Source: Apium graveolens
Lineage: Eukaryota; Streptophyta; Magnoliopsida; Apiales; Apiaceae
Assembly (NCBI RefSeq): GCF_009905375.1
Contig: NC_133655.1
Location: forward strand, 40,641,593-40,705,592
Direction: 5' to 3'
DNA: 64,000 nt
Shown: positions 1 to 32,620 of the stretch, one piece after another
Layout of the letters: every line of letters starts with the position of its first letter
How positions within the stretch are numbered: position 1 is the first letter of the stretch
The notes under the pieces: model-generated
What the model was told of the DNA's origin: nothing
What the model saw: the letters and a program-made list of their open reading frames with translations, nothing else
Database searches by the model: none
Position numbers and translations under genes: made by a program

Positions 1-593
1 CACTTTCTTGGTCTTACAATTAATCTGAGCGTTATTCTCTCCTAACCAATCCATACCTAGAATTATATCAAACTCCCCCAACTTGAAGAGTATCAAGTCG
101 GCTGAAAACTTATATCCTGAAATATCGATCTCACACTTCGGACAGAATTGATTCACAGGAATCTTTTCTTGGTTCACAATTACCACATGTACTACCTCAC
201 TCATAATCATTTTATCACATTGAAGCTTATCAACAAAAGATTTTGATATAAAAGATCTTGTTGCTCCCGAATCAATCAATACTTTAGCTTTGACATTATT
301 GAGTAAAAGTGTACCTGCTATCACCTCAGAATTCTGAACAACATCCTTCATTTTCAGATCAAATGTCCTTGTTGTTGCTTGCGGGGTTGGTGCGGGTGGT
401 GGAGGTAATGCCAATACCTCAGCTGGCACTCTCGCACTGGTACTTGCCACGTTCATTAGAGCTTTGACTGGTCTGATTGCCTTACACTCCCTAGCCATGT
501 GTCCAGTCTTCCCACACTTGTAGCATGTAACTCCTGGCTTCGGCATCTTGCACTCATTCGCCAAATGTCCCTTCTGATTGCACCTATAGCATG
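1..593 (-). pseudogene. Element A: Gag zinc knuckles and protease (3' part of split ORF)
   Basis: Reading the minus strand, this stretch encodes two CCHC zinc knuckles of Gag (CYRCNQKGHLANEC and CYKCGKTGHMAREC, near 590-490). An Ala/Pro-rich linker follows, then an aspartic protease with the catalytic DSGATRSFI motif near 275-250 and the downstream LGMDWLGEN motif near 60-25. These belong to a Ty3/gypsy chromovirus polyprotein and resemble the matching parts of B and D. The ORF runs off the left edge, so reverse transcriptase and integrase should lie beyond base 1. On the right it is interrupted exactly at the TCATG duplication by element B, and the upstream part of the same gag resumes at 12360. 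The family assignment is firm. Whether the missing part is intact cannot be seen. Confidence 0.88.
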
Positions 594-598
594 TCATG
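594..598. repeat. Target-site duplication TCATG, left copy (element B)
   Basis: TCATG directly precedes the LTR start and is repeated directly after the distal LTR at 12355-12359. This proves that B is a complete insertion into element A. Confidence 0.92.
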
Positions 599-3537
599 TA
601 TAACGACTCGTGTATTTTTATTTTATTTCTAATATTTGGAAGTGTAATAAAAGTTTAAGTAAATAAATAAAAGATGTGTATTGATTTTGGCAACGGTTAT
701 TGATTGTTATTTAATTAATTATGATTTGTTGCTATGTGGAATTGAATTGTGTGATTTATTAGTGAATTACATGATTTTATTTTGCTTGTAAAAGTGATTT
801 TATTGTAATTTTAATTCCATAAATATTTGGGTTGTCTTTAAAATTGGTTTTCTAATTTTATAATTTTAATAATTATTTTTAGGACTTTATAAAATTGAGA
901 AATCAATACTTTGTTAATTTTTCATTTTTAAATAATTTCCTGAGTATGTTAAATGCTAAAATCCATATTTAATTATGGGAATCTTTAAAAATTATGAAAC
1001 TTATAATTTATTAAGTTCGTATTATTCTGAGAATTTTAAAATTATTTTGGAAATTTTCGGGAATCGTTTTACCTGCGCGTCGTTTCGTTATTTCTTAAAA
1101 AGCGGGTATAAAGCGTACCTTAAAAATTGTTTAAAATTTTTGGAAATTTATATTTTTATTTATTTCGGGATATTTATAATATTTTAGCGCTGTTTTCGTA
1201 ATTTTCGGAAATTGTTTTGCGTGCATCTCAGTCCGTTAATTTTAAATTTTGGGATAAATCGAGACTCAGAACCTCCGTGATTATCCTATAAACTACGTGT
1301 CAATTCTATAATTATAAGAGTACACGTGTTTATTGCTGGTGTTTAGTTGCAATCTCTGTTAAAAAAAAATAAAAATAAAAACCAAACCCCCCCGGCTTTG
1401 GCTGCACGCGCCTTGTCTCTTTCTCTGTTCATTCTTCTTTCAGTCTCTCTGTTTCTTTTTCTTTCTTTCTTCCGTTTCTTCCCTTCATCTCCGGCGTTAC
1501 CTCCGGTGGTGCTAATTCCGGTAATACTCCCGGCTTGCTTGCTTCAGTTCTGTTGTAATTGATTGGCTTGCATGTATATATACATGTATGTATATATCTG
1601 TGTGTGCTTCTGTGTTGTGATGTGTGTGCGTCCGTGTGTGTTGGTGTCGGGTGTGTGTGTGTGTGTGTGGCGGCCGTGAGGCCGTGCGTGCGATGGGGAG
1701 TGGTGGCTGTGCTGTTGTGGTGCGGCTGTGTTCTTTGTTGTTGGGCTCCCTGTGTTGTTGGGCTTGCAGATTGGCCTTATTTTGGGCCTTTACTGTTGGG
1801 CCAAATTCTGCAGTTGGGCTTGATGATTATAACTTTTAATTCTTATTTCCTAATTTCTGCAGGGTTTTGATTAATATTCATGATATTAATTATTTGTGCG
1901 GAGTAATTTTAAGGATTAATCGGTGAAATTTTTGCGTTGGAAACCCGAGAATTTATCGGGTACCCGCGAAATTTTGCCGCCGTCCGCGATGACTCTTTAC
2001 GAGTGGATGGTGGACGGTGATGACGATGCTCTGAGTCCTAAATTTTATAAATAAATAAAATGATTTTTCATAAAGTATTTCCGGATTTAAATAATTAATT
2101 GTGATTGGTGTTGGGATGTAAGTTGTATAAAAGGACGATGTAATATTGTGAATTGTATGATTGTTGATGTCGATTGCAATCGACAGGTAGTCTTATAAAT
2201 AAATAAGATGCTGCCAAAATTTCCTAAAAATATGTTCGAAAATATATATTTATGTGTTATCTTAACAATATTTCCGACTATGTGACTATGTGATTACAGG
2301 TTTGTGTGTATAATAATAATACGAGTCGGGTTGTCGGATTTGGGTTATTAGGACTTGAGGATATCAAGCATGTCGGTATAACTAATTAGGGTATTCTGTA
2401 ATTGTAGATCCCAATCGAGTCATTCCAGGATCGATGTCAACGTGAAAGCTATTAGGGTCTGTAAAGCGTTGCAAGATAAGTACCCCTGACCATTCTTTTA
2501 TGGTTCAGTGTATATGAATAGCTAAATGTTTATTCTAGTAATGGAACATAAATGTTTTAAGTTACGTATCCCCTGTATGTATAAAAATCATTGTTTTCGA
2601 ATTGTTTTGGGGAAAAGTAACTTCGAAAGGTACCTGTCTCAAATGAAATGATTTGCGAAACTGATTTTATATGTGTGCTGGCTAGATAAATGATTTTGAA
2701 AATGAGATAGGTACACGTGTTTTTGAAAACTGGATAAAACGGTCAGATATGGGATATATTGGGGCCAGAGTAGGCCTATTGAGGTGGCGTAAGAGGCTAA
2801 TTCGGTTGCGCACATTATAAGACCGATTAGTCCAGCAGGTCAGAGACCTAGCTAGTGTCTGAGTTCCGGAACAGGTAAATGGGATGGTAGTTAGAGCCGT
2901 CTGGTGTTGATAGCCTGATCAGCTGTCTTCACATATCCGCTATGTATCTGATTGGGATTTGTGAATTATATGAAAGCATGATTTATTGATACAACGGTTT
3001 TTATAAAATGATTAGCATGCTAAAATTGGACTCTAGTATTACGCAGTACACTATAATGTTATTTTCACAAAGCATGTTAATTAGTGTTATCCAGTTACCT
3101 TGATTATCATTATGAAATGTTGATATCATGATTAAAGCTCTGTTTCCATTATTGTTGCATTATTGTTTTAATCCGTTATTCATATTTGGTAATGCTGAGC
3201 GATTATGCTCACCCTTGCAAACTGTTACGTATATTTCGCAGATGTCTAGAAGATCTGTCAGACCGACCCGTGTTCCCGCCCCTTCTGGACCCGGCTCCTC
3301 TGAGGTAGTTTGTATCAGACCCTGAGGTCTGAAGAGTTGCTGAATAAAGTTAGTGTGTCGTAGATAGTGAATAAAGAGTTTGTAGTAATGAGAAACCTGA
3401 ATTATACTTGAACCTGGATCGGATCTTGGTTTGGGGTCAAGTTAGTACATTCTAATAATAATAACTCTGTTATTATAATTTTTGGGTAATTGTGCTTAGT
3501 GACGTCAACTCCTGACCTCGGGGTTGAGGCCGTCACA
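599..3537 (+). repeat. Element B 5' LTR
   Basis: The LTR is 2939 bp, starts TATAACGACTCG and ends GGCCGTCACA. The first dinucleotide is TA rather than TG in both LTRs of this element. Visible landmarks are a CT-rich tract near 1415-1490 (typical of a transcript leader), a (GT)9 microsatellite at 1651-1668, a cluster of TTGGGCY motifs at 1741-1821, and a short exon-like segment at 3242-3304. A TATA-like AT stretch (TCTATAATTATAAG) near 1302-1318 precedes the CT-rich tract and could mark the start of R. Short ORFs inside the LTR, including a Cys-rich one over the GT repeat, have no recognisable domain. Confidence 0.93.
3242..3304 (+). CDS. Element B accessory gene, putative exon 1 (inside LTR)
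   Basis: This is a 21-codon segment starting MSRRSVRPTRVPAPSG and ending GSSE. The bases before the ATG are ATATTTCGCAG, a good 3' splice-site sequence. The last codon is followed by GTAGTTTG, a plausible 5' splice site. It ends in phase 0, matching exon 2 at 3760. The same exon, with the same 63-bp length and borders, is found in the 3' LTR (MPRRS variant, near 12060) and in both LTRs of D. An exon of identical length occurs in A. Splicing is inferred and no transcript is available. The peptide is basic and Pro-rich and its function is unknown. Confidence 0.5.
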
Positions 3538-3539
3538 GT

Positions 3540-3551
3540 TGGTATCAGAGC
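3540..3551 (+). other. Element B primer binding site (initiator Met tRNA)
   Basis: TGGTATCAGAGC begins two bases after the LTR end. It matches the complement of the 3' end of plant initiator methionine tRNA, the usual primer of Tekay and many copia elements. Confidence 0.93.
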
Positions 3552-3759
3552 TACAGGTTCAAGTCCCTGATTCAGGTTAGGGATTGTGTCAATTAGGTGA
3601 TAACGTGAGTCTTTAAGTGTGGGTCAGCAACTCATATAGAGGAGCAAACCTTTAGAGTCAGTCGAGGGTTTCGACGGCGTTACCCTGGGATCTATTAAAT
3701 GTTTTGATAGAATTGCCTTGACCTGGTTGTGTCTTGTCTGTTTAATATTATGTTGACAG

Positions 3760-4320
3760 TGGCCTATTGCAATTTCGAGTTCTCCATCTCGGGCTTCTGA
3801 TTCGGATAGCTCAGATACGGAGAAACCCCGTGATGCTGTTGCCAAGGAGACCCCTATGCCTCCTCCACCAGTTCCTTCTTATGTACCTCGAGACATTCCT
3901 GTATCTGGTCCTCGTCCCCGTTGGGTACGTAGGTCTGTGTCTGCTGTCAGGGATTTTCCTCCTGGCTGCGGTCCCAGTTCTTCTATGATGAGACCTCCAG
4001 CACCTCCTGTGGCCCCTAGTGGTATTTCTTCACCGATTCCTTATCATATGCATAGGGCGGTGAATACTTCCTTTATCACAGACCAGAGTCCAGAGTTTGC
4101 TGCCCAGTTGGACCAGGTACCTATTGCACCATTTCAGGGTATTTCTGCCCCTTCCCCTGAGGTGCGAGCCCGTGTGAGAGCACTGACCCAGATGGCTGTA
4201 GAGAGGGCTAGGTTTGTTGACCGTTTCATTAGTTCAGAGTTCAGAGCTGTGCAGTATCAGGACCTAGTGAACTGGCTAGTGTTTGAGCTAGGTTCCATTG
4301 GAGGCAGTGGTAGAGATTAG
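3760..4320 (+). CDS. Element B accessory gene, putative exon 2 (leader ORF upstream of gag)
   Basis: An open frame begins directly after a 3' splice-like TATGTTGACAG; the TGA inside that sequence closes the frame upstream. It runs 186 codons to TAG at 4318. The first in-frame ATG is at 3856, giving 154 residues if translated without splicing. The start is Ser/Asp-rich (SSSPSRASDSDSSDTEKP), followed by a Pro-rich middle and a C-terminal helical-looking segment with EVRARVRALTQM and QDLVNWLVFELGSI. Element D has the same ORF, also 154 codons from ATG, with no stop or indel, although D's gag-pol is badly broken. The ORF sits between primer binding site and gag. No known domain is recognised. Confidence 0.6.
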   Translation, partial: WPIAISSSPSRASDSDSSDTEKPRDAVAKETPMPPPPVPSYVPRDIPVSGPRPRWVRRSVSAVRDFPPGCGPSSSMMRPPAPPVAPSGISSPIPYHMHRAVNTSFITDQSPEFAAQLDQVPIAPFQGISAPSPEVRARVRALTQMAVERARFVDRFISSEFRAVQYQDLVNWLVFELGSIGGSGRD

Positions 4321-4763
4321 ACAGAGTTGCAGTAGAGGGATGCAGAGTTCAGAGTTGGCTTTTAGGAGCTCTATGGTTGTTTACTTTGTATACGTATATT
4401 ATGTTATGATAGTTTGTAGTAGGCGAGGCTGTTTTGACAGCCAATTTTGGTGTGTATTCGGATGGTTCTTTGTATTTGGATTTTCAGTTGTACTAGTTGG
4501 ATTCTGTTGGTTACTGTAGTTCAGCTGCTTTATACTATTGTTCAGTTTTTTTTATATATATATCGTGTGTTGCTATTATTGTTGCTATTATTATTGTTGT
4601 TTCTGTTGCTGGCATTTTTTTTAGATTATAATCATTCACTCAGGACGGATCCAATTATAATGGGGGATGAGAATATTGTCTTAGTGGCAACACTCTCCTG
4701 ATGCATAAATATAAACTGCTGGAGCAATTCATTTTCTTATATATGACTATTATGTTTCAGGAG

Positions 4764-7700
4764 ATGCCACCAAAGAAAAATTCTCAGCCCAATAACGGAT
4801 CTGCCGGGGATCTTTCCATGAGTGATTTGATGAACTTGTTGCGTCAGCAGACTGTACAGCTGGCCCAACAACAACAACAATTCCAGCAACAGCAGCAACA
4901 ATTGCAACAACAACAACAACAGCAACAACACCTCATATAGCAACAACAACAGCAAATCCAACAGCAGCAACTACAAATCCGACAGCAGCATGAGATGAGA
5001 GGGGCAAATCAAGGTGTTAGTTTTAAGTCTTTTCAAGCAGTGAAGCCCCCAGAGTTTAAAGGAGAGGTAGATCCTGTTGCTGCCAGGATATGGTTAAAGG
5101 AAATGGAAAAGGCGTTTGCGCTCATTAAGGTGAGTGAGGATTTAAAGACTGATTATGCTAGTTATTTTCTGAGGAATGATTTGAATTATTGGTGGGAATC
5201 TACGCGAGCCCTAGAAGGAGAAGGTCCAGTTCCCTAGGCCAGATTCACAGAATTGTTTTTGGAAAAATACTTTCCAGCCTGTCTCCAAAGTAAAATGGAG
5301 ATGGAATTTTTGGAGTTGAAACAAGGAAATAGGAGTGTTACGGAATATGAAGCGAAGTTTACGGAGTTGGCCCGTATAGCACCGGAATATGTGAGTTCAG
5401 AAGCCCAACGAGCGAAGCGGTTTCAGCAAGGGTTGAAGCCAGAAATAAGAAGTGGAGTTGTATCCTTACAACTCAAGACATATATTTCGGTAGTTCAGGC
5501 TGCCCTGGTGATAGAGAGTGATCAGAAGTTAGCTACAAAGGAGCAGGGTGAGAAGAAGAGAAAATTTGAAAGTGGACCCGCTAGATCGGAATCAGGAATA
5601 GCGAGTCAGAAGTTTCAGCGTTGGTTCGGTAGAAATAAGAATAAAAAGTTTAAAGGGCAAAACTTTCCCCAAGTTAAGCCCGGTACAACATCAGTTAATT
5701 CTGCCCCGACGAGAATGAGTAAGCCTGTGGTTGATTGTAAGACGTGTGGGAAAAAGCACAGTGGACAGTGTCGAGAGAATGTTAATTATTTTAAGTGTGG
5801 ACAGAAAGGTCACTATTCCACGGAATATAAGTCTGAGATTCAAGGAGTTACTTGTTTTAGTTGCGGCAAACTGGGACACATAGCTAGGAATTGCAAGTCA
5901 GTGACCCAAGGTAATGCGGGAAGGAGTGTGTCTCAAGGACCAGCAACCAGTACTGCGAGAGCTAGGACTTTTAAGATGACCCAGAAGTCTCCAGTTCATG
6001 ATTCTGATGTGGTTGCAGGTACGCTTATTCTTAATTCCATACCTGTTAACGTTTTGTTTGATTCGGGAGCATCCAAATCTTTTATATCTGTCAATTGTGT
6101 GAATAAGATGCAATTGATGCTAGAAGACTTAGATGAACCCTTAACTATAGAAGTGGCTAATAAAGATAAAATACCTGTAAAACAATTTTGTCCTAGTTGT
6201 TCCCTAGAGATTTCGGGGTATATGTTCCCTGTTGACTTAATACCTTTCGAGTTGGGAGACTTTGATGTTATTTTAGGTATGGATTGGTTATCTCGATATA
6301 GGGCAAATATTGATTGTAAGAAAAAGAGAGTTGTTCTGTACACCTCAAATAATAGAAGGATCAGTTACAAAGGGGAGAGGCAAGATAGGAAGTTTCTCTC
6401 AGTGATGCAAGCAAGAAAATTGCTGAGACAAGGATGTGAAGCGTACTTAGCTCATGTAGTGGATACGAAGAAAGAGACCCCTATTTTGGATGACATCCCT
6501 GTAGTAAGAAAATTTTCTGATGTTTTTCCAGAAGAATTACCAGGATTGCCACTTGATCGTGAGATAGAGTTTTCCATTGATTTGATATCGGGAGCTGAAC
6601 CAGTTTCTAAGGCTCCATACAGAATGGCCCCGATGGAAATGAAAGAATTGGCTAAGCAACTTCAGGAGTTATTGGATAAAGGAGTTATTCGACCTAGTAT
6701 TTCCCCGTGGGGTGCTCCAGTGTTATTTGTGAAGAAAAAGGATGGAAGTATGAGATTGTGTATTGATTACAGAGAGCTGAATAAGTTGACGATAAAGAAT
6801 AAATATCCCTTGCCGCGGATCGATGATTTGTTTGACCAGCTTAAGGAAGCATGTTACTTTTCAAAGATTGATTTAAGGTCCGGCTACCACCAATTGAAGA
6901 CAAAGCCCGAGGATATCCCCAAGACTGCATTTCGAACAAGGTATGACCATTACGAGTTTTCAGTAATGTCGTTTGGATTGACGAATGCGCCAACAGCTTT
7001 CATGGATTTGATGAATAGGGTATATAAGGAGTATCTAGATAAGTTTATTATTGTATTTATTGATGACATCCTCGTATATTCGATGAATCCAGAAGATCAC
7101 GCGGTGCATCTGCAGATTGCCCTTCAAAAGTTAAGAGAAAAGCAATTGTATGCTAAATTTTCTAATTGTGAGTTTTTGTTGACGGAGCTACAGTTTCTTG
7201 GACATGTAGTGAGTAAGGAAGGTATCAAAGTAGACCCGGTAAAGATTGAAGCTGTATCAAAATGGGAGCAACCGAAGACACCCACGGAAATACAAAGTTT
7301 TCTTGGATTAGCGGGATACTATCGAAGGTTTGTGAAAGATTTCTCAAAGATTGCATCCCCACTAACCAAGTTGACCAGGAAGAATGAGAAGTTCGTTTGG
7401 ACGGAAAAGTGTGAAGAGAGTTTCCAGGAGTTAAAGCGAAGATTGGTAACGGCTCCAGTATTAGCATTGCCAGATGAGACGGGAAACTTTGTAATTTATA
7501 GTGATGCTTCTCTGAAAGGATTGGGATGTGTGTTAATGCAGCATGGCAAAGTGATTGTGTATGCCTCCATACAACTAAAGCCTCATGAACAAAAATATCC
7601 AGTTCATGACTTTGAATTGGAGGCTATAGTATTTGCTTTAAAGTTATGGCGTCACTACTTGTATGGAGAGAAATGCGATATTTATACCGATCATAAGAGC

Positions 7701-9377
7701 CTAAAGTACATATTCACGCAGAAAGATCTGAATATGAGACAGAGAAGGTGGTTGGAGTTGATTAAGGACTATGATTGTTCAGTTAACTATCACCCAGGTA
7801 AAGCCAATGTAGTGGCTGATGCCTTGAGTAGAAAGGAAAGGCTGAATATGATTAAGATTGCGGAAGAGTTGGCGCAACATTTAGAAAGAATGGAAATTGA
7901 AGTTCGAGTACCAAGTGAAATTCAGGAGCAGCTATATGAAGTTACTTTCCAGCCAGCATTAATGGAAAAGATTAGAAGATGTCAAGAAGGAGTTATGGAG
8001 CAAGAGTTGGATACTTTGACAGGAGAAGAGTTGTGTACTCAAAAAGATAGTCAAGGTTTATATAGGTTTTCGTCCAGAGTATGGATTCCTGCTGTAACAG
8101 AGTTGAAGAACGAAGTTTTGCAGGAAACACATAACTCTAGGTTTTCTATCCACCCTGGTAGTACCAAGATGTACCAGGATTTGAAGAGAAATTTTTGGTG
8201 GCCAGGAATGAAGAAAGATATTGCCAATTGGGTAAGTAAATGTCACGTGTGTCAGACGGTGAAAGCAGAGCATCAACGACCAAGTGGATTGTTACAATCT
8301 TTGGAGATTCCCCAATGGAAATGGGAAGATATTGCTATGGACTTTGTAGTAGGATTGCCAAAGACGAGAGCGAATCATGATGCTATTTGGGTAATCATTG
8401 ATAGATTGACTAAGTCGGCGCATTTTCTTCCGATTAATGAAAGGTATTCATTGGAAAAGTTTGTTAAATTATACTTGGATGGGATAGTTACCAAACATGG
8501 AGTTCCTGTTTCTATAGTGTCGGATCGAGACCCGAGATTTAATTCCAGGTTCTGGACTAAATTCCAAGAGTGCCTAGGAACGAAATTGAATATGAGCACT
8601 GCTTATCATCCTCAGACGGATGGCCAAAGTGAGAGGACAATTCAGACCATATAGGATATGTTGAGAGTCTGTGTTTTAGATTTTAAGGGTAATTGGGATG
8701 AGCACCTACCTTTGATTGAGTTCTCATATAATAACAGCTACCATACCAGTATAGGGATGCCACCTTATGAAGCTTTGTATGGATGAAAATGTAGGTCACC
8801 ATTGTACTGGGATGAGGTAGGAGAAAAGAAAGTGTTAGGCCCTGAGTTAATTCAGCAGACTAGAGGTGCTATAGTGTTGATTCAGAAAAGATTGGAAGCA
8901 GCTCAAGATAGACAAAGAAAATACGCAGATATGCATAGGAAAGACATGGACTTTGAAATAGGAGCGTTGGTGTTACTAAAGGTATCACCTTGGAAAGGGT
9001 TAGTACGATTTGGTCAGAAGGGTAAACTTAGCCCTAGATTCATAGGACCCTTTGAGGTTTTAAAGAAAGTAGGAAAGGTCGCTTATGAGGTAGCGTTACC
9101 ACCGCAGTGGCAGCACATTCATAATGTGTTCCACGTGTCTATGTTGAAGCCCTATGTCCCTAATTCGAATCAAGTCATAGAATACGAACCGATTGAGCTT
9201 CAACCATATTTGTCTTATGTGGAACAACCGGTCCAAATTTTAGACCGTAAAGAACGAGTCCTTAGGAATAAATCAATTCCAATAGTAAAAGTTTTGTGGA
9301 AAAATCCATGAGTAGAAGAGTCTACTTGGGAATTGGAGTCGGACATGCTTGATAAATATCCTCATTTGTTTAGCTGA
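4764..9377 (+). pseudogene. gag-pol: Element B gag-pol polyprotein with five in-frame stops
   Basis: A single reading frame of about 1,537 codons starts at ATG 4764 (MPPKKN), just after TTTCAG-GAG. Gag has a Gln-rich tract (4866-4990), the retrotransposon-gag fold with YWWES near 5188, and zinc knuckles near 5735-5893. Only the last knuckle ([14 protein letters not shown]) is intact; the one before it has two Cys positions occupied by Tyr. Protease has DSGAS at 6060, RT has the FIDD catalytic motif at 7056-7067, and RNase H has its first Asp at 7503. Integrase has His at 8130, the CHVC pair at 8241-8252 and catalytic Asp 8340, Asp 8523 and Glu 8631. A GPF segment and a chromodomain-like tail follow. 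In-frame stops are at 4938, 5235, 8652, 8784 and 9309. There is no frameshift. Confidence 0.95.
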
Positions 9378-9403
9378 GTCAGATTCTGGGGACTGAATCT
9401 TTT

Positions 9404-9417
9404 TAAGGGGGAAGGAA
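9404..9417 (+). other. Element B polypurine tract
   Basis: AAGGGGGAAGGAA lies directly before the 3' LTR and would prime plus-strand DNA synthesis. Confidence 0.85.
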
Positions 9418-12354
9418 TATAACGACTCGTGTATTTTTATTTTATTTCTAATATTTGGAAGTGTAATAAAAGTTTAAGTAAATAAATAAAAGATGTGTAT
9501 TGATTTTGGCAGCGGTTATTGATTGTTATTTAATTAATTATGATTTGTTGCTATGTGGAATTGAATTGTGTGATTTATTAGTGAGTTACATGATTTTATT
9601 TTGCTTGTAAAAGTGATTTTATGGTAATTTTAATTCCATAAATATTTGGGTTGTCTTTAAAATTGGTTTTCTAATTTTATAATTTTAATAATTATTTTTA
9701 GGACTTTATAAAATTGAGAAATCAATATTTTGTTAATTATTCATTTTTAAATAATTTCCTGAGTGTGTTAAATGCTAAAATCCATATTTAATTATGGGAA
9801 TCTTTAAAAATTATGAAACTTATAATTTATTAAGTTCGTATTATTCTGAGAATTTTAAAATTATTTTGGAAATTTTCGGGAATCGTTTTACCTGCGCGTC
9901 GTTTCGTTATTTGTTAAAAAGCGGGTATAAAGCGTACCTTAAAAATTGTTTAAAATTTTTGGAAATTTATATTTTTATTTATTTCGAGATATTTATAATA
10001 TTTTAGCGCTGTTTTCGTAATTTTCGGAAATTGTTTTGCGTGAATCTCAGTCCGTTAATTTTAAATTTTGGGACAAATCGAAACTCAGAACCTCCGTGAT
10101 TATCCTATAAACTATGTGTCAATTCTATAATTAGAAGAGTACACGTGTTTATTGCTGGTGTTTAGCTGCAATCTCTGTTAAAAAAATAAAAAAATAAAAA
10201 CCAAACCCCCCCGGCTTTGGCTGCACGCGCCTCGTCTCTCTCTCTGTTCATTCTTCTTTCAGTTTCTCTGTTTCTTTTTCTTTCTTTCTTCCGTTTCTTC
10301 CCTTCATCTCCGGCGTTACCTCCGGTGGTGCTAATTCCGGTAATACTCCCGGCTTGCTTGCTTTAGTTCTGTTGTAATTGATTGGCTTGCATTTATATAT
10401 ACATGTATGTATATATCTGTGTGTGCTTCTGTATTGTGATGTGTGTGCGTCCGTGTGTGTTGGTGTCGGGTGTGTGTGTGAGTGTGGCGGCCGTGAGGCC
10501 ATGCGTGCGATGGGGAGTGGTAGTTGTGCTGTTGTGGTGCGGCTGTGTTCTTTGTTGTTGGGCTCCCTGTGTTGTTGGGCTTGCAGATTGGCCTTATTTT
10601 GGGCCTTTACTGTTGGGCCAAATTCTGCAGTTGGGCTTGATGATTATAACTTTTAATTCTTATTTCCTAATTTCTGCAGGGTTTTGATTAATATTCATGA
10701 TATTAATTATTTGTGCGGAGTAATTTTAAGGATTAATCGGTGAAATTTTTGCGTTGGAAACCCGAGAATTTATCGGGTACCCGCGAAATTTTGCCGCCGT
10801 CCGCGATGACTCTTTACGAGTGGACGGTGGACGGTGATGACGATGCTCTGAGTCCTATATTTTATAAATAAATAAAATGATTTTTCATAAAATATTTCCG
10901 GATTTAAATAATTAATTGTGATTGGTGTTGGGATGTAAGTTATATAAAAGGATGATGTAATATTGTGAATTGTGTGATTGTTGATGTCGATTGCAATCGA
11001 CAGGTAGTCTTATAAATAAATAAGATGCTGCCAAAATTTCCTAAAAATATGTTCGAAAATATATATTTATGTGTTATCTTAACAATATTTCCGACTATGT
11101 GACTATGTGATTACAGGTTTGTGTGTATAATAATAATACGAGTCGGGTTGTCAGATTTGGGTTATTAGGATTTGAGGATATCAAGCATGTCGGTATAACT
11201 AATTAGGGTATTCTGTAATTGTAGATCCCAATTGAGTCATTCCAGGATCGAAGTCAACGTGAAAGCTATTAGGGTCTGTAAAGCGTTGCAAGGCAAGTAT
11301 CTCTGACCATTCTTTTATGGTTCAGTGTATATGAATAGCTAAATGTTTATTCTAGTAATGGAACATAAATGTTTTAAGTTACGTATCCCCTGTATGTATA
11401 AAAATCATTGTTTTCGAATTGTTTTGGGGAAAAGTAACTTCGAAAGGTACCTGTCTCAAATGAAATGATTTTCGAAACAGATTTTATATGTGTGCTGGCT
11501 AGATAAATGATTTTGAAAATGAGATAGGTACAAGTGTTTTTGAAAACTGGATAAAACGGTCAGATATGGGATATATTGGGGCCAGAGTAGGCTTATTGAG
11601 GTGGCGTAAGAGGCTAATTCGGTTGCGCGCATTATAAGACCGATTAGTCCAGCAGGTCAGAGACCTAGCTAGTCTCTGAGTTCCGGAACAGGTAAATGGG
11701 ATGGCAGTTAGAGCCGTCTGGTGTTGATAGCCTGATCAGCTGTCTTCATATATCCGCTATGTATCTGATTGGGATTTGTGAATTATATGAAAGCATGATT
11801 TATTGATACAACGGTTTTTATAAAATGATTAGCATGCTAAAATTGGACTCTGGTATTACGCAGTACACTATAATGTTGTTTTCACAAAGCATGTTAATTA
11901 GTGTTATCCAGTTACCTTGATTATCATTATGAAATGTTGATATCATGATTAAAGCTCTGTTTCCATTATTGTTGCATTATTGTTTTAATCAGTTATTCAT
12001 ATTTGGTACTGCTGAGCGATTATGCTCACCCTTGCAAACTATTACGTATATTTCGCAGATGCCTAGAAGATCTGTCAGACCGACCCGTGTTCCCGCCCCT
12101 TCTGGACCCGGCTCCTCTAAGGTAGTTTGTATCAGACCATGAGGTCTGAAGAGTTGCTGAATAAAGTTAGTGTGTCGTAGATAGTGAATAAAGAGTTTGT
12201 AGTAATGAGAAACCTGAATTATACTTGAACCTGGATCGGATCTTGGTTTGGGGTCAAGTTAGTACATTCTAATAATAATAACTCTGTTGTTATAATTTTT
12301 GGGTAATTGTGTTTAGTGACGTCAACTCCTGACCCCGGAGTTGAGGCCGTCACA
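9418..12354 (+). repeat. Element B 3' LTR
   Basis: The LTR is 2937 bp and nearly identical to the 5' LTR. It also starts TATAACGACTCG and ends GGCCGTCACA. Differences include scattered substitutions and a shorter, interrupted GT microsatellite near 10470. It carries its own copy of the 21-codon exon-like segment near 12060-12122, where the last codon is AAG instead of GAG. Confidence 0.93.
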
Positions 12355-12359
12355 TCATG
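12355..12359. repeat. Target-site duplication TCATG, right copy (element B)
   Basis: This is an exact copy of 594-598. To its right the minus-strand gag of element A resumes. Confidence 0.92.
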
Positions 12360-13329
12360 CTCAACTTATTACACACTCCGGGGTGCCTTCTTCCACAGTG
12401 CTTGCACTCGGGTCTCTGGAACCTGTTTTCTCCAACTTGTCCTTAGCTTGCCTGGTTGTTCCCTTTTGATTCTTGCCTTTTGCCCAAATTTCCCTTCTTT
12501 TGAAAATTTCCGCCCTTATGGAATCCGATCCTCTTTACATTCCGATGTTGTGAACTTCCGGCTTCAGACTTTTTTCCATAAAATGGAACCTTCCTCTTCT
12601 TGTTATCCCTTTCCTTCATTGACTGCGTCCCATTATTCTCAATCAGAAAAGCTTTCTGTACTACTCCCGCATAAGTTTCAAGCTCAAACATAGCCACTCT
12701 ATCTCTGATCCAAGGCTCCAATCCTTGCTGAAATTTCTTCGCTTTTTCCTCCTCGGTGCTGGTATACTTTGTTACAAACCTTGACAACTCAGTGAACTTC
12801 TTCTCATATTCCAATACAGTCATGTTCTCTTGCTTCAACTCAAGAAATTTAAGCTCCATCTGATTCTGCATGTACTTAGGGTAATACTTGTCCAAAAATA
12901 ACTTCTTAAATCTCTCCAAAGAAACTTGTTGAGTTGCTTCCATAGCTTTTACTGATTCCCACCAATAGATGACTTCACCCTTCAAGAAGTAAGTAGCATA
13001 CGGCGTCTTCTGATCGTCTCCTAACTATACCAACTCAAAAGCCCTTTCCATTTCCTTAATCCATATGTTAGCTATTACTGGATCAGTAGGATCATGGAAT
13101 GCAGGTGGATTCATATTCTGAAAAGTTTGAAAGTGATAACTTGTCTAGGTGGTACTGGTGGTTCAGGTGGTTGGTGTGGTTCACGGTTATCTTGGTTTTC
13201 AATTCACTGTTGAAGGGTTAGTTGTTGTTGAGCTATATCATTGGTTTGTTGTTGCAAAGCTTCCAGTAATCGAAGAATATTTGGGTCTGTGGTGGATGTG
13301 GTTATAGGGTTCTTCTTTTTGGGAGGCAT
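12360..13329 (-). pseudogene. gag: Element A: Gag N-terminal part
   Basis: On the minus strand gag starts at ATG 13329 (MPPKKKNPITT), four bases after TTTCAG. A Gln-rich stretch follows, then the retrotransposon-gag domain (IYWWESVKAM near 12970; LDKYYPKYMQNQMELKFLELK near 12890-12840), a basic linker, and a CKHCGRRHPGVC knuckle just before the interruption by B. In-frame stops occur at 13206-13204 and 13027-13025, and a frameshift lies between them (ATG frame versus the frame of the 12443-12985 stretch). The rest of the ORF continues at 593-1. Similarity to B and D Gag supports a Tekay-like chromovirus. Confidence 0.9.
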
Positions 13330-13647: not shown

Positions 13648-14004
13648 CTAAGGCTCCACTCCATCTGAACGGGGCTTGGTAGTCTTTTCCTCTCGAAGCG
13701 TCTTCACAATGCTCTGGAGCTCATCCGCCACCATCTGAATGACATACTGGCTGGTGTGGTCTCGGTGCGCTGGCATCTCCTCAAGCTTAGTGTTGACGTA
13801 CTGAACCAAGGTCTCAAGTCTTGCAGTCATTTGCTCCTTGGGCTTCCCTTCATAGTTTCGGCTGTCCAGGTACACGTTCTTTAGTCAGTCTATCAGTCGG
13901 TCGTACTTGCCCTGAAGCATGTCGAACTCGCGCCTCAACTCAGCATACACGGAGAAAGCAATGGTGTCGTCCGTCCCAAAGGATGACGAGGAATGCGCCC
14001 TTTA
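13648..14004 (-). pseudogene. Element A accessory gene, putative exon 2 (leader ORF)
   Basis: On the minus strand a frame follows the 3' splice-like GGTTTGTCAG (CAG at 14007-14005) and ends at 13648. It opens Ser-rich then acidic (AHSSSSFGTDD), as in B, and ends with a predicted helical part (LETLVQYVNTKLEEM, QMVADELQSIVKTLREE). It has two in-frame stops: TAA at the very first codon (14004-14002) and TGA at 13887-13885. It occupies the same position as the B and D leader ORFs, between primer binding site and gag. Homology by sequence alone is weak, so the link rests on position, composition and the shared first-exon design. No known domain is recognised. Confidence 0.45.
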
Positions 14005-14122
14005 CTGACAAACCAATAAAAGGAGTATTAATAATAAACTTAACCTACTCTCTCGCATATTATCTATAACCTATACATATACCCTATAACCTATTTGGGC
14101 TGTCCAGGGACTCTAAACCGTA

Positions 14123-14134
14123 GCTCTTATACCA
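14123..14134 (-). other. Element A primer binding site
   Basis: The minus strand reads TGGTATAAGAGC, one mismatch from the initiator-Met tRNA primer site, five bases after the LTR end. Confidence 0.85.
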
Positions 14135-14318
14135 AAACCTGTCACACCCCCAACTTAAACAACAAAGTAAATGTAACTATAACACCATTTAAAAATAAAT
14201 AAACATATCCAACTCCAAGATCTTACAGTTTAGGGTTTGGAACAGCCCAACACTACCACCTATTACAACTGATTTTAAATATCGAGTCCTCACACAAAAC
14301 TACTATCTCTTATTCTAC

Positions 14319-14381
14319 CTGAGCTCGAACATAAGCATCAGCATCACAGGTCTTACGGGCGGTCTGCTTGAATCTAACCAT
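14319..14381 (-). CDS. Element A accessory gene, putative exon 1, histone H3-tail-like
   Basis: The minus strand has ATG at 14381 and exactly 21 codons ending GCT CAG, then GTAGAATAAG, a good 5' splice site. Upstream, CCTGATATTACAG is a good 3' splice site 11 bases before the ATG region. The peptide begins MVRFKQTARK. After Met, seven of the first nine residues match the histone H3 tail ARTKQTARK, including both lysines. The length (63 bp) and place in the LTR equal the exon in B and D, which argues that it is a real exon. It ends in phase 0. In this copy the exon 2 frame opens with a stop codon, which may be a C-to-T change. Splicing and translation are inferred. Confidence 0.5.
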
Positions 14382-17300
14382 AGCTGCTAGCTGTAATATC
14401 AGGGTAAAGCAAGGAGTGAGCCAAATGCTCAACAAGTGCTAATCAATATGATACAAAACATAAGTTGAGATATACATTAAAGAATGTCAATGAGAGGACA
14501 TAACCAATGATATCGAGAGATAAAACTTTTGGGAGGTGGCATCATTTTGTTTGTATCAAAATAACTTCAAAATCATACTTTTAATCAAAATCATTTTATG
14601 ACGCTACGGATTACAGCCGGTGATCAGCCGCGAAGTAATCCCGAACCTCGCTGGGTTCTACAACATTAATGGGAATCCCTAGGCAACTTTTAAGCCTAAT
14701 ATAAGTATGGAAAGGACTCGCATCTCAGTCCAGATCCACTATTCAAGAAAACATTTATCCCCCTTTGGGACTGAAAACCCACATTTTATTTATTTCAAAA
14801 ACTGATGCCGAAATATAACAAAATCTCTTTTAACAGAAACATTTTATCAAGGAATTATAGATCTACCTGAAACATGGGAAATATGGTACTAAATTTCAGG
14901 GCCATGATCCACAAAACTATACTCTATTAGGGTAACTGAATGGTCTTCATATATCAAAGTTTGGACAAGGGAATTTAGCGAAGCTATTGGATATTATGAA
15001 GGGTAATGTCAAACTGGGCTAAAAACAATGGTTTCTCATCAAGGTTCAAGTGCTGGATCATCAAGAAGGTAAGCTTCATGAATACTAAGGGTTTTAAGGT
15101 ATGAAGAAATGATCTTTAGCTCAGGATTTATCAGAATTGTCAAGCTTTAAGATAAGAAAGAGGGGAAATCAATGAAGAATCACTTTGATAAATATTTGGC
15201 TTTCAGGGTTCAAGGTAAGGTTCTATAGGGGTTCAAGTATCAGGATGAGATATCAATACTTAGGAATCATTAAAATGATAATCAAGAGAATCAATCAAGA
15301 GTTGTAACTACCCTTTCTTTTATCATGGCATTCAAATTACTTTAAATTACTATCATGATAAGACTTTTGAACTACTTGCAATACGTACTCAAGGGTTCAT
15401 GGCATTTCAAGGATAAACATAAGATATGCTTGACTTAAATATATATATATCAAAATGACTCAGGATAGTTGTATCGATATAAATGAACTATTTACAGTGA
15501 ATACGAAAGACAGGTTGAATCACTTGCCTTGAGAAAGGCTGGTCTGGTCTGACTGGTAGGAGCAACTGGAAGCTTCACTTGACCTTTATGGCAAGTTTTC
15601 CGTCGTCTCGAGATCCTACATAAATAATAATAATCCTCATTATAATATATCCTCACCAACTTAACCTATTTACAACCCGAATTTAAACACGGATGGCACT
15701 TAGGCCTATATGCACTTAATTTATATTCACCTTTAAATTATAATTGCACACACATAGCCACATAATCACATATCATATATTAATACCAAATAACACCATA
15801 TACACCATAATGCAACACTTGGCTCAGATGATCTCGACTCACAACTTAAGTCACTTGGTCGCTAAACTAGACAAAGTCTTCTAATTTTTGGCTTCCCAAC
15901 TCGATGTGCCTTTACTAAACTATCCAAGACCTATTGACCCTCACTTGGGCCTTTTGCTCTACTAACCTTATACTATCTTACAACTATGATGGTCAACCTA
16001 AATCTCACTCCTAAGTGTTCTAAAACTATGTGATAAGTGAAAGTGCTCACTGGTGCAAATTTCAGAATGATATCTATGGTTTCTTGAGTGTATTAGACAC
16101 TCTTAAACTACAAGTTTTCCTTCAAAACTTTTACACAAGACCCTCCTGACCTAAGGTCATCTCCCAAACTTAATGTGGCTCAAGGGCCTGGCTTGGGCCT
16201 TCTTGGGCCTAAGCTCAAAGTCCATGGTTCCCCTGTTTTTCTGGGCAGAAAATGCCCTGACTTGAATTAACTTTTGACACATGGTTCTAACTCATATCCT
16301 ATGATCTATGGTTGGAAAAACTTCTCTGACACTCCCTCTAACTAAGTCCCAACAGATCCTAATGAGGGCCTACCCATGACATGGTCAAATATCCCTATTT
16401 CTAAGTTGCAACAAAACTGTCCCCTGCTGGACAGATTTTGTTATTCTACTTGTGCACCTAACCAAATGACATGCAAACCTCCAACCAACACCTAAAACCT
16501 TTTATATACTCCCAATACTAACTTCTGGTGGCTTGGGCCTCAAAGTGCACATCAATGACATGGTCAAAACTCACTCTAAACCTCAGGGTACTAAACTGAT
16601 TTTCTGCAGAAACTATAACTCTCCTTTCTCCAAGGTTTTGACTTGACAAACTCAACCACCAACAACCCAATACCCAAACCAAGACTTAAACATGGTGATC
16701 TACTGAACTAACTCCCTTATACTAAAAATAATCTTGGTGGAGATCATCCTTACCTAAGGTGCAATCATGGTAAAACAAAAGAAACCACATTTCACAACTC
16801 ACAAATCATCAAGTTTTTGAAATAACAAGTTATGCATTTTTATAAAAGATATACACGAATTATTACCATGCATCAAGAAGCATTAATCAATATTAACTCC
16901 TTATTCCTACTGAAATTAAAGCTTACTAATAAAATCCTTCCTAATGATCAAAATCTTCCAACATTTCAAGAGAAATTCACATGCATGCATAACTTCGAGT
17001 TTTGCAAACCAAAACAACATATTTTCTAAATATATTCTATCATAAAATTGACATTCAAGCCTAGCATAAGCTATACCTAGATGATCACTTAGCATGCAAA
17101 GAGTTTTATCAAATTTTCACTACAAGTTTCTTGCCATTATCACATAAACATACAAAAATTGAACCAAGCAACAAGAATGATCTCTAGGACCATTCATTCG
17201 GCTCCCTTAAGGTCATGGCCGAATGAAATGGAAGGAAATGTCCATTTAACATCAAGAGTTTCTTTCTCAAGACTTGGCACTTCACCATTCCTTGTAGTCC

Positions 17301-17611
17301 TCTCAAAAATAACCTTAAATCCACAAAAATCAAGGTTGTACTTTAAGTTTCAACTAAAACCTTAACATGCAACTTTAAAACTTAAACTTTTTACTCAAAA
17401 CTCCTTGGAATATATGTGATCATGGTATGGGAAATAACGTTTACTTGTGTAGAAGGTGGAAACTTGGTGGAGGAATGAAGAAAATGGGGAGGGGGTTGGT
17501 TTCGGCTGAAAAACCGAGAGAAGGAGGGGGAGGGCCGAGAGTGAGGGAGTGAGGAGGGTGGGAGGAGAAAGTGTGATGGTGAGTGGAGTGGATGATCATA
17601 TCAATTGCTTG

Positions 17612-17618
17612 CTTTATA
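17612..17618 (-). promoter_or_regulatory. TATA box of element A LTR promoter
   Basis: The minus strand reads ACTATAAAGCAAGC, followed about 25-40 bases downstream by a CT-rich transcript-leader-like tract. Confidence 0.55.
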
Positions 17619-18180
17619 GTTTTTGATTTGGCAAATGTGAGTGGGAATGAGAATTGACAAGACTATCCCTCCACCTATACTTGGTTCATTTTGCATGCAA
17701 GGGTAAAGAAGGAATTTGGCTAGAAAAATAAGAGTTAGTGGGGTTGAAATTGTCTCTTTAGCCCTTTGAATTGAATAGAGAAGAATTTGCATGCAAGGAC
17801 AACCATGTAATTTGCTAATTATGACAACTAACATTTATAAAGATTTATTTTTATAAAATAAAATACAAGTTCAAAAATTATAAAATTTATACCATAAAAT
17901 AACTTGGATTTTTAGAAATTTTATAAAACCACTTTTGAATTTTGTGAACAAAATAACTTTTAAAAAGATATTTATTGAAGGTTTAAAATATTCCTTATAA
18001 ATCAAAAATAAAAGAAATAAATAAACTTTTGCTTTGAAAAAATCATATACCACATAACGAAAATTTAAGACGCGGAAATTCTCATTCACACAAACATACA
18101 ATAGTTGAATATATTGGCATTCATCTTTAAATTTACACCAAATTTACAATTAATATTACACGAAAATGCCGGTTGTAACA

Positions 18181-23839: not shown

Positions 23840-26774
23840 TGTGACGGCCTCAACCCCGGGGTCAAGAGTTGACATCACCAAACCAAATTATGAAAATATA
23901 AACAACAAGATTATTATTAATATATGCTAACTTGACCCCAAACCAAGATCCGATCCAGGTTCAAGTATGATTCAGATTTACATTATTACAACCTATTTAT
24001 TCAACATCTAACACACTCTAACTTTATTCAGCAACTCATCAGACCTCATGGTCTGATACAAACTACCTCAGAGGAGCCGGGTCCTGAAGGGGCGGGAACA
24101 TGGGTCTGTTTGACTGGTCTTCTAGGCATCTGCGAGATATACATAACAGTTTGCAAGGGTGAGCATAATTGCTCAGCAGTACCAACATATGAATAACGGA
24201 ATAAAAGTTGTAATATAACAATAGTAGGAACAGAGCTGTAATCATGATATCAACATTATATAATGAAAATCGAAGATAACTGGATATCACTAACTAGCAT
24301 GCTTTATCAAAACAACGTAGTAGTTTGTTGTGTAAGTACCAGAGTCAAATTTTAGCATGCTAATCACATTTATAAAACCGTTGTATCAACTACTTATACC
24401 CTTACGGGAATCACAAATCCAAATCAGATACATAACGGATATGTGAAGACAGCTGATCAGGCTATCAACACCAGATGACTCTAACTGCCATCCCATTTAC
24501 CTGTTCAAGAACTCAGAGACTAGCTAGGTCTCTCACCTGCTGGACTAATCGGTTATATAATGCGCGCAACCAAATTAGCCTCTTACGCCACCTCAATAGG
24601 CCTACTCTGGCCCCAATGTATCCCATATCTGACCATTTTATCCAGTTTTCAAAACACTTGTACCTATCTCATTTCCAAAATCATTTATTTAACCAGCACA
24701 CATATGAAATCTAGTTCGCAAATCATTTCATTCGAGATAGGTACCTTGCGAAGTTACTTTTCCCCAAAACAATTTGAAAACAGTGATTTATAGCTACAGG
24801 GGATATGCAACTTAAAACGTTTATGTTCCATTACGAAAGTAAAACATTTAGCTATTCATACATACTGAACCATAAAAGAATGGTCAGGGTTACTTGCCTT
24901 ACAACGCTTTACAAAACCCTAAGTAGGTTTTACGCCGACTTCAGTCCTGGGGAAACTTCACCGGGATCTACAAATACAGAGTACCCTAATTAGTTATACC
25001 GGCATGTTTGATATCCTCAAATCCTAATAACCCAATCCGATAACCCGACTCGTATAGTTATTATACACATAATCACGTAATCACGTAGCCCGAACACAAT
25101 TAGGGGTAACACGTAGAATATAATTACGTACGTTTACAAATATATTTTTAGAAAATTTTGGCAGCAACTTCTTTGTTTATAAGACTACCCGTCAATTACA
25201 ATCGACGTCAACAATCAAAACAATCCACATTACCACTCAACCATTTTATACAACGTACATCACAACACCAGTCATAATTAATTATTTAAGTTCGAAAATA
25301 TTTTACGTAAATCATTTTATATATTTATAAAATTTAGGATTCAGAACATCGTCATCACGTCCTCCGTCCGCTCGTAACAAGTCATCTCGGCACGGCGGCA
25401 AAATTTTCTGGGTACCCAATAATTCGAATTCCAACCAAAAATTTCACCGATTATTAAATTTTTTTTTTACTGCACGGATATTTTATTTCACAAAATCAGT
25501 CAAAAAAAATTCCCGCAAGAACACAATTATTCATATTAAAACCAACTGAACACTAATTAGGCCCAGAGTTAGAGCCCAACTACTAAGCCCAACTGCCAGG
25601 TCCAATAACAGGCCCAACAGAAGGCCCAAATAATCAAGCCCAACAGATATCAACCATAGGGAGGCAATACAGCACAGGAACCACCACGACCACAACACAC
25701 ATGCGCCGCAACTCGTGCGCATACACTGCAACCACACACACAATTCACACACATGACACACACACACAACACACACAAACACTTGATACACACACATAAT
25801 AACACAATACACACATATAATCACCTACCGTCGCCACCAAACCGGAGAACCGATGGCGACAGCGGCCAGAAAAAGGAAGAAACGACGATAAAATAAAAGA
25901 AACCAGGCGGCATAGGAATTACCGAGAGGAGGAAGCAAGCGGGGGAGGAAGAGTGCGAGAAAATACAGAGATAGAGATTAAGAGAGGGAGAGAATAGTGA
26001 GATTAGAGAGAAATGAGAGAGTAGAGCTGAGAGAGTTCGAGAACAAAGAGATTGATGTCACAGCCCAAAAATCACGATACACTGCCGCGTGTAACCAAAA
26101 ATAATACTCAACCTTTTATTAACCTGAGAGCATGACACCTGTCCCGTGTCACTCTTTTGGGTAACTTCTGGCTCGTTATTTTCAATTAAACGAATCGAGT
26201 TACAGTTAAAACAACTTCGAAAAATTACGAAAATTATCTTATTTTTAAAATAATTTCTGAAACACAATTTAAACCTGCTTTTAACAAATAAACGAATCAA
26301 CGCGCGGGTGAAATTAATCTCAAAAATCCCCAAAATAATTTTAAAATTCCCGGAATATTCCCAACTTAAATAAATATCAGTTTCATAATTTTTGAAGAAT
26401 TCAGGATTTAAATATAGATTTTACAAATAAATGCACTCAAAAAATCATACAGGGCCAAATAATTGATGAAATATTGATTCCTAAATTTTATAAAATCCCA
26501 AAAATAATTATTGTAATTAAAAAATTATAAAACTAATTTTAGAGATCATTCAAATATTCATGGAATTAAGACTGCAATAAAATCACTTTTACAAGCGAAA
26601 TAAAATCGTATAACTCACTAATAAATCACATAATCCAATTCTCATACTAACATATCACAAATAATTAAGTAACAATTAACAACTGCTGCCAGAAATCAAT
26701 ACACCTTTATTTAATTATTCAGATCTTTATTACACTTTTAAATATTAAAATAAAAAATTACACGAGTCGTTACA
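23840..26774 (-). repeat. Element D 3' LTR
   Basis: On the minus strand it starts TGTAACGACTCG (26774) and ends GGCCGTCACA (23840), 2935 bp. It contains a CT-rich leader-like tract (26045-25930), a TG-rich microsatellite region (25830-25735), six RGCCCA/TGGGCY motifs (25560-25645), and an exon-like segment near 24140-24070 reading MPRRPVKQTHVPAPSG. Confidence 0.92.
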
Positions 26775-26795
26775 TCCTTTCCCCCTTCAAAAGAT
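26775..26795 (-). other. Element D polypurine tract
   Basis: The minus strand reads CTTTTGAAGGGGGAAAGGA directly before the 3' LTR. Confidence 0.85.
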
Positions 26796-26814
26796 TATGT
26801 CCCCAGAATCTGAC

Positions 26815-29800: not shown

Positions 29801-31399
29801 TGTCCTTGGTAGCTGGTCCTTTTATTATCTGGGGTGTACATAACAACTCTTTTTTTCTTACAGTCAATATTCGCCTTATATAGAGACAACCAATCCATAC
29901 CTAAAATAATGTCAAAGTCTCCCTCGAAAGGTATTAAGTCAACAGGGAACATATACTCTAAAATCTCTAGGGAGCATCCAGGACAAAATTGACTTAAAGA
30001 TACTTTATCTTTATTAGCCACTTCTATGGTCAAAGGTTCTTCTAGGTCTTCCAATATTAATTGCATTTAATTCACACAATTCACAGATATAAAAGATTTG
30101 GACACTCCCGAATCAAACAAAACGTTAACAGGTACGGAATTAAGAGAAAACGTACCTGCAACCACATCGGAATCATGAACTGGAGACTTCTTGGTCATCT
30201 TAAAAGTCCTAGCTCTAGCAGTACTGGTTGCTGGTCCTTGGGATATACTCCTTCCAGCATTACCTTGGGTCACTGACTTGCAATTTCTAGCTATGTGTCC
30301 CACTTTTCCACAACTAAAACAAGTTACTCTATGAGTCTCAGACTTACACTCCGTGGAATAATGACCTTTTTGTCCATACATAAAATAGTTGATATTTTCT
30401 CGACACTGTCCACTATGCTTCTTCCCACACGTCTTACAATCAACCACTGGCTTACTAACCCTCGTCGGGGTAGAGTTAACTGAAGTAGTACCGGGTTTAA
30501 CTTGGGGAAAATTCTGCCTCTTGAAACTCTTATTCTTATTCTTTTCAAACCAACGCTGGAACTTCCGACTTGCTATTCCTGATTCTGACCTAGCAGGTCC
30601 ACTTTCAAATTTCCTCTTCTTCTCACCCTGCTCCTTTGCAGCTAATCTCTGATCACTCTCTATCACTAGGGAAGCCAGAACTACCGAAGTATATGTCTTG
30701 AGTTGTAAAGCTACAACTCCACTCCTTATTTCTGGCTTCAACCCTTGTTGAAACCGCTTCGCTCGTTGAGCTTCTGAACACACATATTCCGGTGCTATAC
30801 GGGCCAACTCCATAAACTTCACTTCATATTCTGTAACACTCCTATCTCCTTGTTTCAATTCCAAAAATTCCATCTCCATTTGACTCTGGAGTCAGTACGA
30901 AAAGTATTTTTCCAAAAACAACTCTGTGAATCTGGCCCAGGGAACTGAACCTTCTCCTTCTAGGGCTCGCGTAGATTCCCACCAGTAATTCGAATCATTT
31001 TACAGAAAATAACTAGAATAATCCGTCTTTACACCCTCACTTACCTTGGTGAGCGCAAACGCCTTTTCCATCTCCTTTAACCATATCCTGGAAGCAATAG
31101 GATCTACTTCTCCTAAATTCTAGGGGTTTCATTGCCTGAAAAGACTTAAAACTAACACCCTGATTTTCCCCCGTCATCTCATGCTGCTGCTGGATTTGTA
31201 GTTGCTGTTGTTGGATTTGTTGTTGTTGTTGCTGTATGAGCTGTTGTTGTTGTTGTTGCAATTGTTGTTGCTACTGGTGGAATTGTTATTGTTGTTGGGC
31301 CAGCTGTATAGACTGTTGACATAATAAGTTCATCAATTCACTCATGGAAGGATCCCCAGCAGATCCGTTATTGGGTTGAGAGTTTCTCTTTGGTGGCAT
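26815..31399 (-). pseudogene. gag-pol: Element D gag-pol polyprotein, heavily mutated
   Basis: It starts at minus-strand ATG 31399 (MPPKRN), three bases after TTTCAG, and ends at 26815. Domains in order are Gln-rich Gag, gag domain, zinc knuckles near 30440-30280 (one CCHC, CFSCGKVGHIARNC, intact), protease DSGVS near 30110, RT with FIDD near 29120, RNase H near 28700, and integrase with zinc finger near 28060-27910 and core motifs to about 27540. A GPF segment and a chromodomain-like tail (VLRNKSIPIVKVLW) end at 26815. Lesions: frameshift near 31118, stops 31002, 30894, 30069, frameshift near 29693, stops 29029, 28891, 28741, 27535, frameshift near 27360, stop 27171. Confidence 0.93.
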
Positions 31400-31830: not shown

Positions 31831-32397
31831 CTAGCCACTACCACTGCCACCAATGGAACCTAGCTCAAACACTAGCCAGTTCACTAGGTCCTGATACTGT
31901 ACAGCTCTGAAATCTAAGCTAATGAACTGGTCAACAGATCTAGCCCTCTCTACATCCATCTGGGTCAATGCTCGCACACGGGCCCGCACCTCAGGGGAAG
32001 GCGCAGAAATGCCCTGGAAAGGTGTAATAGGTATCTGATCAAACTGAGCAGCCAACTCTGGACTCTGATCTCTGATAAAGGAAGTATTCACCGCTCGATG
32101 AAGAAGGTAAGGGATGGGTGAAGAAGTACCCCTAGGGGCCACAGGAGGTACTAGAGGTCTCATCATGAAAGAACTGGGACCACAACCGGGAGGGAAATCC
32201 CTAACAGCAGACACAGACCTATGTACCCAACGGGGATGAGTACCAGGTCCAGGGATGTCTCTCGGCACAAAGGAAGGAACTGGTGGAGGAGGCATAGGGG
32301 TCTCCTCAGCAACAACATCCAGGGTCCTCTCAGAATCTGAGCTATCCGAGTCAGAGGGATTCTCCCGGGATGGAGAACTCGAAATCGCAATAGGCCA
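31831..32397 (-). CDS. Element D accessory gene, putative exon 2 (leader ORF)
   Basis: The minus-strand frame opens right after the splice-like TATATTGACAG at 32400-32398 and runs 188 codons to 31831. The first ATG is at 32295 (MPPPPVPSFVPRDIP), giving 154 residues as in B. It is Ser/acid-rich at the start, Pro-rich in the middle and ends LVNWLVFELGSIGG. About 24 of 154 residues differ from B, with no indel and no stop, while gag-pol beside it has ten or more lesions. No known domain is recognised. Confidence 0.6.
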   Translation of the reverse strand, partial: WPIAISSSPSRENPSDSDSSDSERTLDVVAEETPMPPPPVPSFVPRDIPGPGTHPRWVHRSVSAVRDFPPGCGPSSFMMRPLVPPVAPRGTSSPIPYLLHRAVNTSFIRDQSPELAAQFDQIPITPFQGISAPSPEVRARVRALTQMDVERARSVDQFISLDFRAVQYQDLVNWLVFELGSIGGSGSG

Positions 32398-32618: not shown

Positions 32619-32620
32619 AC

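Follow-up and report, generated by a model that had tools for sequence, protein, structure and literature searches.

A predicted LTR exon matching the histone H3 tail in a probably Tekay-type retrotransposon of Apiaceae

Some groups of Tekay/Del-type chromoviruses have long LTRs and carry an additional ORF between LTR and gag. The extra ORFs of retrotransposons have been reviewed (PMC7264820), and in sunflower group-2 elements the 5'aORF is conserved in 500 of 523 (PMC11728184). The Tekay 5'aORF proteins of sunflower (Tekay 13-2), maize, sorghum and rice are encoded, as at the locus described here, by a sense ORF between LTR and gag (PMC11728184). Likened by description, they also share with the protein studied here a small size, a partly disordered and partly helical make-up and the lack of a known domain. 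In contrast to these 5'aORFs, the first coding exon predicted here lies within the LTR and is H3-like; the main text of PMC11728184 makes no mention of splicing, introns or histones. Short copies of H3 in unrelated parasitic proteins are described for viruses, namely ARSK in influenza NS1, ARKS in coronavirus ORF8 and KXXR in hepatitis delta antigen (PMC10208167). These viral mimics copy few residues, away from the N-terminus, whereas the gene models of Heracleum described below follow H3 over their first eleven residues, including K4 and K9. The carrier also differs, as it is a plant LTR retrotransposon, and its protein is a candidate mimic. A functional parallel is offered by VANC of the Arabidopsis VANDAL transposons, likewise a plant transposon accessory protein proposed to act against host silencing (PMC10398659). 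The parallel is one of function only: VANCs recognise specific DNA sequences of the elements that encode them, and nothing here suggests sequence-specific DNA binding. Among the matches listed in open-licence PMC papers, judged by titles and the starts of abstracts, no retrotransposon-encoded histone mimic was found.

The window, i.e. the whole stretch of DNA analysed here, comprises 64,000 nucleotides of the celery (Apium graveolens) genome and contains three related elements, A, B and D, each with extra ORFs between LTR and gag. Element A, on the minus strand, is partial in the window, and its integrase lies outside it. Its LTR (14140..18180, minus strand) ends in ..GGGGGTGTGACA at 14140; the start at 18180 was placed from TGTTACAACC and a weak likeness to the LTR of B, because the window does not include the partner LTR. 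Just past the LTR end lies the primer-binding-site-like TGGTATAAGAGC (14123..14134, minus strand), which we take to be of the tRNA-Met type. The gag gene (12446..13329, minus strand) starts with an ATG at 13329 just past an acceptor-like TTTCAG, and its capsid part (12446-12985) matches Retrotrans_gag in Pfam. Element A is interrupted within gag by element B and resumes past it at 1..598 (minus strand) with a frame for zinc knuckle and protease, both recognised by eye. Element B is a related full-length element (599..12354, plus strand) flanked by the target site duplication TCATG at 594-598 and 12355-12359. Its domain order of protease, RT, RNase H and integrase is that of a Tekay/Del-type chromovirus (Ty3/gypsy), and the LTRs of B and D are about 2.9 kb long. 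The gag DNA of A is about 60% identical to that of B and D, and element A is probably Tekay-type.

Several further features were seen in the window. In the LTRs of B and D (23840-35596) the first bases are TATAACG and the last ..GTCACA, which makes a non-canonical TA..CA pair, and the 5-bp target duplication is TCATG for B and AGTAC (plus strand) for D. An acceptor-like TTTCAG stands just upstream of the gag ATG in all three elements, at around 13336 (A), 4760 (B) and 31402 (D), hinting that their gag may perhaps also come from a spliced message. Away from these elements, a tandem array of four 1.65-kb units with about 95% identity occupies 41333-47914, and a Ty1/copia remnant with gag, pre-integrase and reverse transcriptase domains lies at 54697-59289.

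The putative first coding exon of the accessory gene of element A lies in the LTR on the minus strand (14381-14319, 63 nt), 179 bases from the LTR end, and encodes MVRFKQTARKTCDADAYVRAQ. The first-pass annotation had proposed that this exon begins MVRFKQTARK and repeats seven of the nine residues of the H3 tail after Met. This is confirmed: the residues equal to ARTKQTARK are R2, K4, Q5, T6, A7, R8 and K9, and the H3-like stretch is a real sequence feature of the LTR, with the proposed coordinates and size correct. To put the match into proportion, we compared the H3 tail with every ATG-led peptide of 10 residues without a stop in the window, 1320 in all over both strands. The exon ranked first for H3 with 7/9 matches and the runner-up had 4/9, while the equivalent scan of the window's ATG-led peptides with the H4, H2A and H2B tails gave a maximum match of 4. 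The annotated 63-bp length and splice-like borders hold as well. The donor after the exon, CAG|GTAGAA, fits the donor consensus at 6/9 positions. Together with the acceptor-like TTTGTCAG, whose last base is at 14005, it delimits a predicted intron (14005..14318, minus strand) that takes in the end of the LTR, the primer-binding site and the first part of the internal region. An acceptor-like AG also stands 9 nt upstream of the ATG in A. Upstream of gag, exon 2 (13648..14004, minus strand; 357 nt including the final stop) encodes a 5' accessory protein that is small and predicted to be helical. Two in-frame stops (14004-14002 and 13887-13885) break the exon in this copy, so the full protein cannot come from copy A; its relatives have an open reading frame at both stop positions. 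These features mark 14381-14319 as a predicted coding exon that matches the histone H3 tail and lies within the LTR of an Apiaceae retrotransposon, probably of Tekay type. Our main reading, to which we give a probability of roughly 40%, is that in intact relatives the exon would start an accessory protein serving as a decoy for host readers and writers of K9 (and K4), which would ease silencing.

The LTR-exon design is wider than the H3 likeness, since B and D carry an LTR exon that lacks the H3 tail. In B, the corresponding 63-nt exon (3242..3304, plus strand; second copy in the 3' LTR at 12059-12121) encodes MSRRSVRPTRVPAPSGPGSSE, which is not H3-like, and is followed by an open exon 2 of 186 residues (3760..4320, plus strand). 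In D, the 3' LTR copy (24067..24129, minus strand) encodes MPRRPVKQTHVPAPSGPGSSE and exon 2 is again open (31831..32397, minus strand). The equal exon size that had been claimed for B and D thus holds for B and for the 3' LTR of D (63 nt), but not for the 5' LTR of D, whose copy at 32848..32909 (minus strand) has 62 nt, one base short. These exons start with MSRRSVRPTRV.. in B and MPRRPVKQTHV.. in D, with an AG immediately upstream of the ATG. The upstream LTR sequence, the exon slot and the donor of A align with those of B and D, and KQT is present in the 3' LTR copy of D. This suggests, without proving it, that the H3 core may have grown from an older exon. Exon 2 of B and D differs with a dN of 0.083 and a dS of 0.359, and the ratio of 0.23 indicates that their accessory gene is under purifying selection.

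The composition of these sister exons bears on the most serious alternative, a plain basic leader: the exon would make the N-terminus of the accessory protein basic, so that it can enter the nucleus or bind nucleic acids, and this composition would resemble H3 only incidentally. The exons of B and D are Arg-rich yet not H3-like, and the 5'aORF proteins of sunflower and grass Tekay elements are predicted to be nuclear (PMC11728184), both of which such a leader would explain. It leaves aside that the uncharged Q5 and T6, and mostly A7, are kept alongside the basic residues. Moreover, with the amino-acid composition of the three exon peptides (A, B and D) as background, at least 7/9 matches to H3 are expected with p = 7e-7 per try. 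We regard a plain basic leader as less likely than the decoy reading, but as the most probable of the alternatives.

We then looked for the exon in gene models. Three protein searches, one of which scored the 7996 candidates sharing most words, yielded 23 different proteins, made up of 11 NCBI gene models and 12 single ORFs. The 11 gene models with exon 2 come from Apium graveolens (seven) and Heracleum sosnowskyi (four), and all named matches belong to these two genera, which represent separate tribes of Apioideae. Exon 1 is present in 7/11 gene models (4/7 in Apium, 3/4 in Heracleum), and in all seven it is joined to exon 2 by an identical ..AQ|Q.. junction, in agreement with the earlier proposal of an LTR-located H3-like exon. 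The other four models (P0009, P0015, P0017 and P0018) have different N-termini without exon 1, and none of the 12 single ORFs contains it, as expected for unspliced ORFs. The exact exon 1 peptide of A recurs in the models P0016 and P0021. Conservation of KQTARK across copies had been proposed as a check, and the motif is kept in 7/8 exon 1 peptides (copy A and the seven models) from the two genera, the remaining one reading KQTSRK; a KQTARK unique to copy A is thereby excluded. K4, Q5, T6, R8 and K9 are kept in 8/8. The departures from H3 are F or I at T3 in Apium, I at R2 in one model, S at A7 in one, and V for A1 in all.

The likeness is strongest in Heracleum. The three Heracleum models with exon 1 start MVRTKQTARKSSNGV, and their peptide MVRTKQTARKS shares 10/11 residues with H3 including Met, or 8/9 after Met. 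The H3-like stretch is N-terminal only in these three models and internal in all four exon 1-bearing Apium models, so that an N-terminal position is less well supported for Apium. These four models are chimeric, and the predicted exons upstream of the H3-like stretch are unrelated to it: P0019 has a lipase-like fragment before exon 1, and P0016 and P0021 have other upstream exons. As a separate observation, the celery model P0006, whose exon 1 begins MVIFKQTARK, fuses a protease piece of the A family (as in 1-598, minus strand) to exon 1 and exon 2, and looks like an element interior spliced into a downstream LTR.

To compare rates of change along the gene, we aligned Apium models with Heracleum P0007, leaving out P0006. 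The first ten residues of exon 1 are identical at 9/10 (P0016), 9/10 (P0021) and 8/10 (P0019) positions, against 5/11 in each for the remaining exon 1 and 61/118, 35/67 and 44/85 for exon 2, respectively. The one-sided Fisher p values for P0016, P0021 and P0019 (0.017, 0.020 and 0.076) are modest, with one above 0.05, and are not independent, as all share P0007. The H3-like feature is thus old enough to be present in two genera, and its core changes less than the sequence around it.

The closeness of the Heracleum peptide to H3 raises a further possibility, that the start of the coding sequence of a host H3 gene was captured into the LTR of a common ancestor of A and the Heracleum elements and has since decayed at differing rates, with or without a function. 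Besides the 10/11 residues, 5 of the next 20 residues in Heracleum match H3 in register, which only 0.4% of shuffles equal, in a post hoc comparison. A capture sits poorly with the alignment of the upstream LTR, exon slot and donor with the non-H3 exons of B and D, and the KQT in the 3' LTR of D fits a stepwise change of an older exon instead. Decay alone also leaves unexplained why the core is better conserved than exon 2. We consider this origin improbable. Slightly less probable still is a chance likeness within a gene-prediction artefact, in which the arrangement of an ATG, a GT and an AG is coincidental and the models reproduce one false exon. The chimeric Apium models and the four of 11 gene models with other N-termini are what it would predict; set against it, peptide and junction are common to two genera although about half of the exon 2 residues differ between them, and the core changes less than the remainder. 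Chance alone as the main reading is rejected on the window peptide scan together with the two-genus conservation.

We next examined the accessory protein using P0007. No histone family was found in it by Pfam at E values up to 10. In a phmmer search against PDB chains, H3-type chains were among the matches listed, with a best E of 0.06 over about the first 50 residues. The AlphaFold2 model, built from 17 sequences, has a mean pLDDT of 66.6 and a pTM of 0.41. Residues 1-34 have a pLDDT below 50, which in this low-confidence model is consistent with disorder and applies to the N-terminal motif of Heracleum, the Apium motif being internal; helices are predicted at 40-70, 78-99, 106-128 and 139-154. 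The accessory protein has no fold match in PDB or BFVD at E ≤ 0.001, PADLOC gave no match for P0007, and no relatives were found in viral contigs or in prokaryote genome contigs. With neither a Pfam histone family nor a PDB fold match in P0007, a real histone gene is rejected as an explanation.

The first-pass annotation had also pointed to a chromodomain-like tail on the integrase of related elements. Such a stretch is visible by eye at the integrase end of B and D, and B has no Pfam chromodomain match. A link between the exon and the element's own chromodomain is unsupported, and the idea is further weakened because in plants the group II chromodomains are missing an aromatic residue that the classical reader uses in methyl-lysine reading (PMC3350952). 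The least probable reading, that recognition of the H3-like tail, either by the chromodomain of the element's integrase or by heterochromatin readers, brings the pre-integration complex to silent chromatin, can draw on this stretch in B and D, and is opposed by the missing Pfam match in B, the position of A's integrase outside the window, the aromatic residue absent from group II chromodomains and the competition with nucleosomes that the protein would face.

We return to the decoy reading, in which the H3-like accessory protein would compete with host silencing factors; we consider such competition more likely than the other options raised in the first-pass annotation, such as a link to the element's chromodomain or help in directing integration. 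The decoy reading is supported by the H3 match, by the junction and the core residues kept in both genera and by the purifying selection on the accessory gene of B and D, and it is weakened by the broken copy A, the internal position of the motif in Apium and the absence of the H3 tail from B and D. In Arabidopsis, AGDP1/ADCP1 detects the combination of H3K9me2 with unmethylated K4, and the mechanism of SHH1 has been likened to it (PMC7218100). H3K9me2 is recognised by CMT2 and CMT3 and written by SUVH4/5/6 (PMC7218100). Our hypothesis for the function of the H3-like protein, drawn from its predicted sequence, starts from the message. The predicted splicing would drop the LTR end and the primer-binding site from the accessory message. 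Since the primer-binding site lies in the predicted intron, this message would be subgenomic and separate from the genomic RNA, and it could not template a new copy. Removal of Met before Val, which we take to occur, would then yield the N-terminus V1-R2-T/F3-K4-Q5-T6-A7-R8-K9, in register with H3. This predicted disordered tail would sit on helices that may pair, displaying several tails. SUVH4/5/6-type enzymes are candidates for methylating the tail at K9, and AGDP1/ADCP1, SHH1 or CMT2/CMT3 are candidates for binding it. Carrying K4 and K9 in register with H3, and perhaps presenting them several times per complex, the protein would compete for silencing factors. The complete scheme is more tentative than the decoy reading by itself: a retrotransposon lineage would have acquired an H3 N-terminus of its own (K4, R8 and K9) through an LTR exon spliced off the primer-binding site, and its helical, multivalent protein would soak up K4me0/K9me2 readers and K9 writers, loosening heterochromatic silencing.

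Histone mimicry against silencing is a viral strategy, and the open-licence PMC matches listed include no retrotransposon case. The near-perfect, conserved H3 tail described here offers a concrete hypothesis for what an accessory ORF of these retrotransposons may do, namely counter-silencing through histone mimicry.
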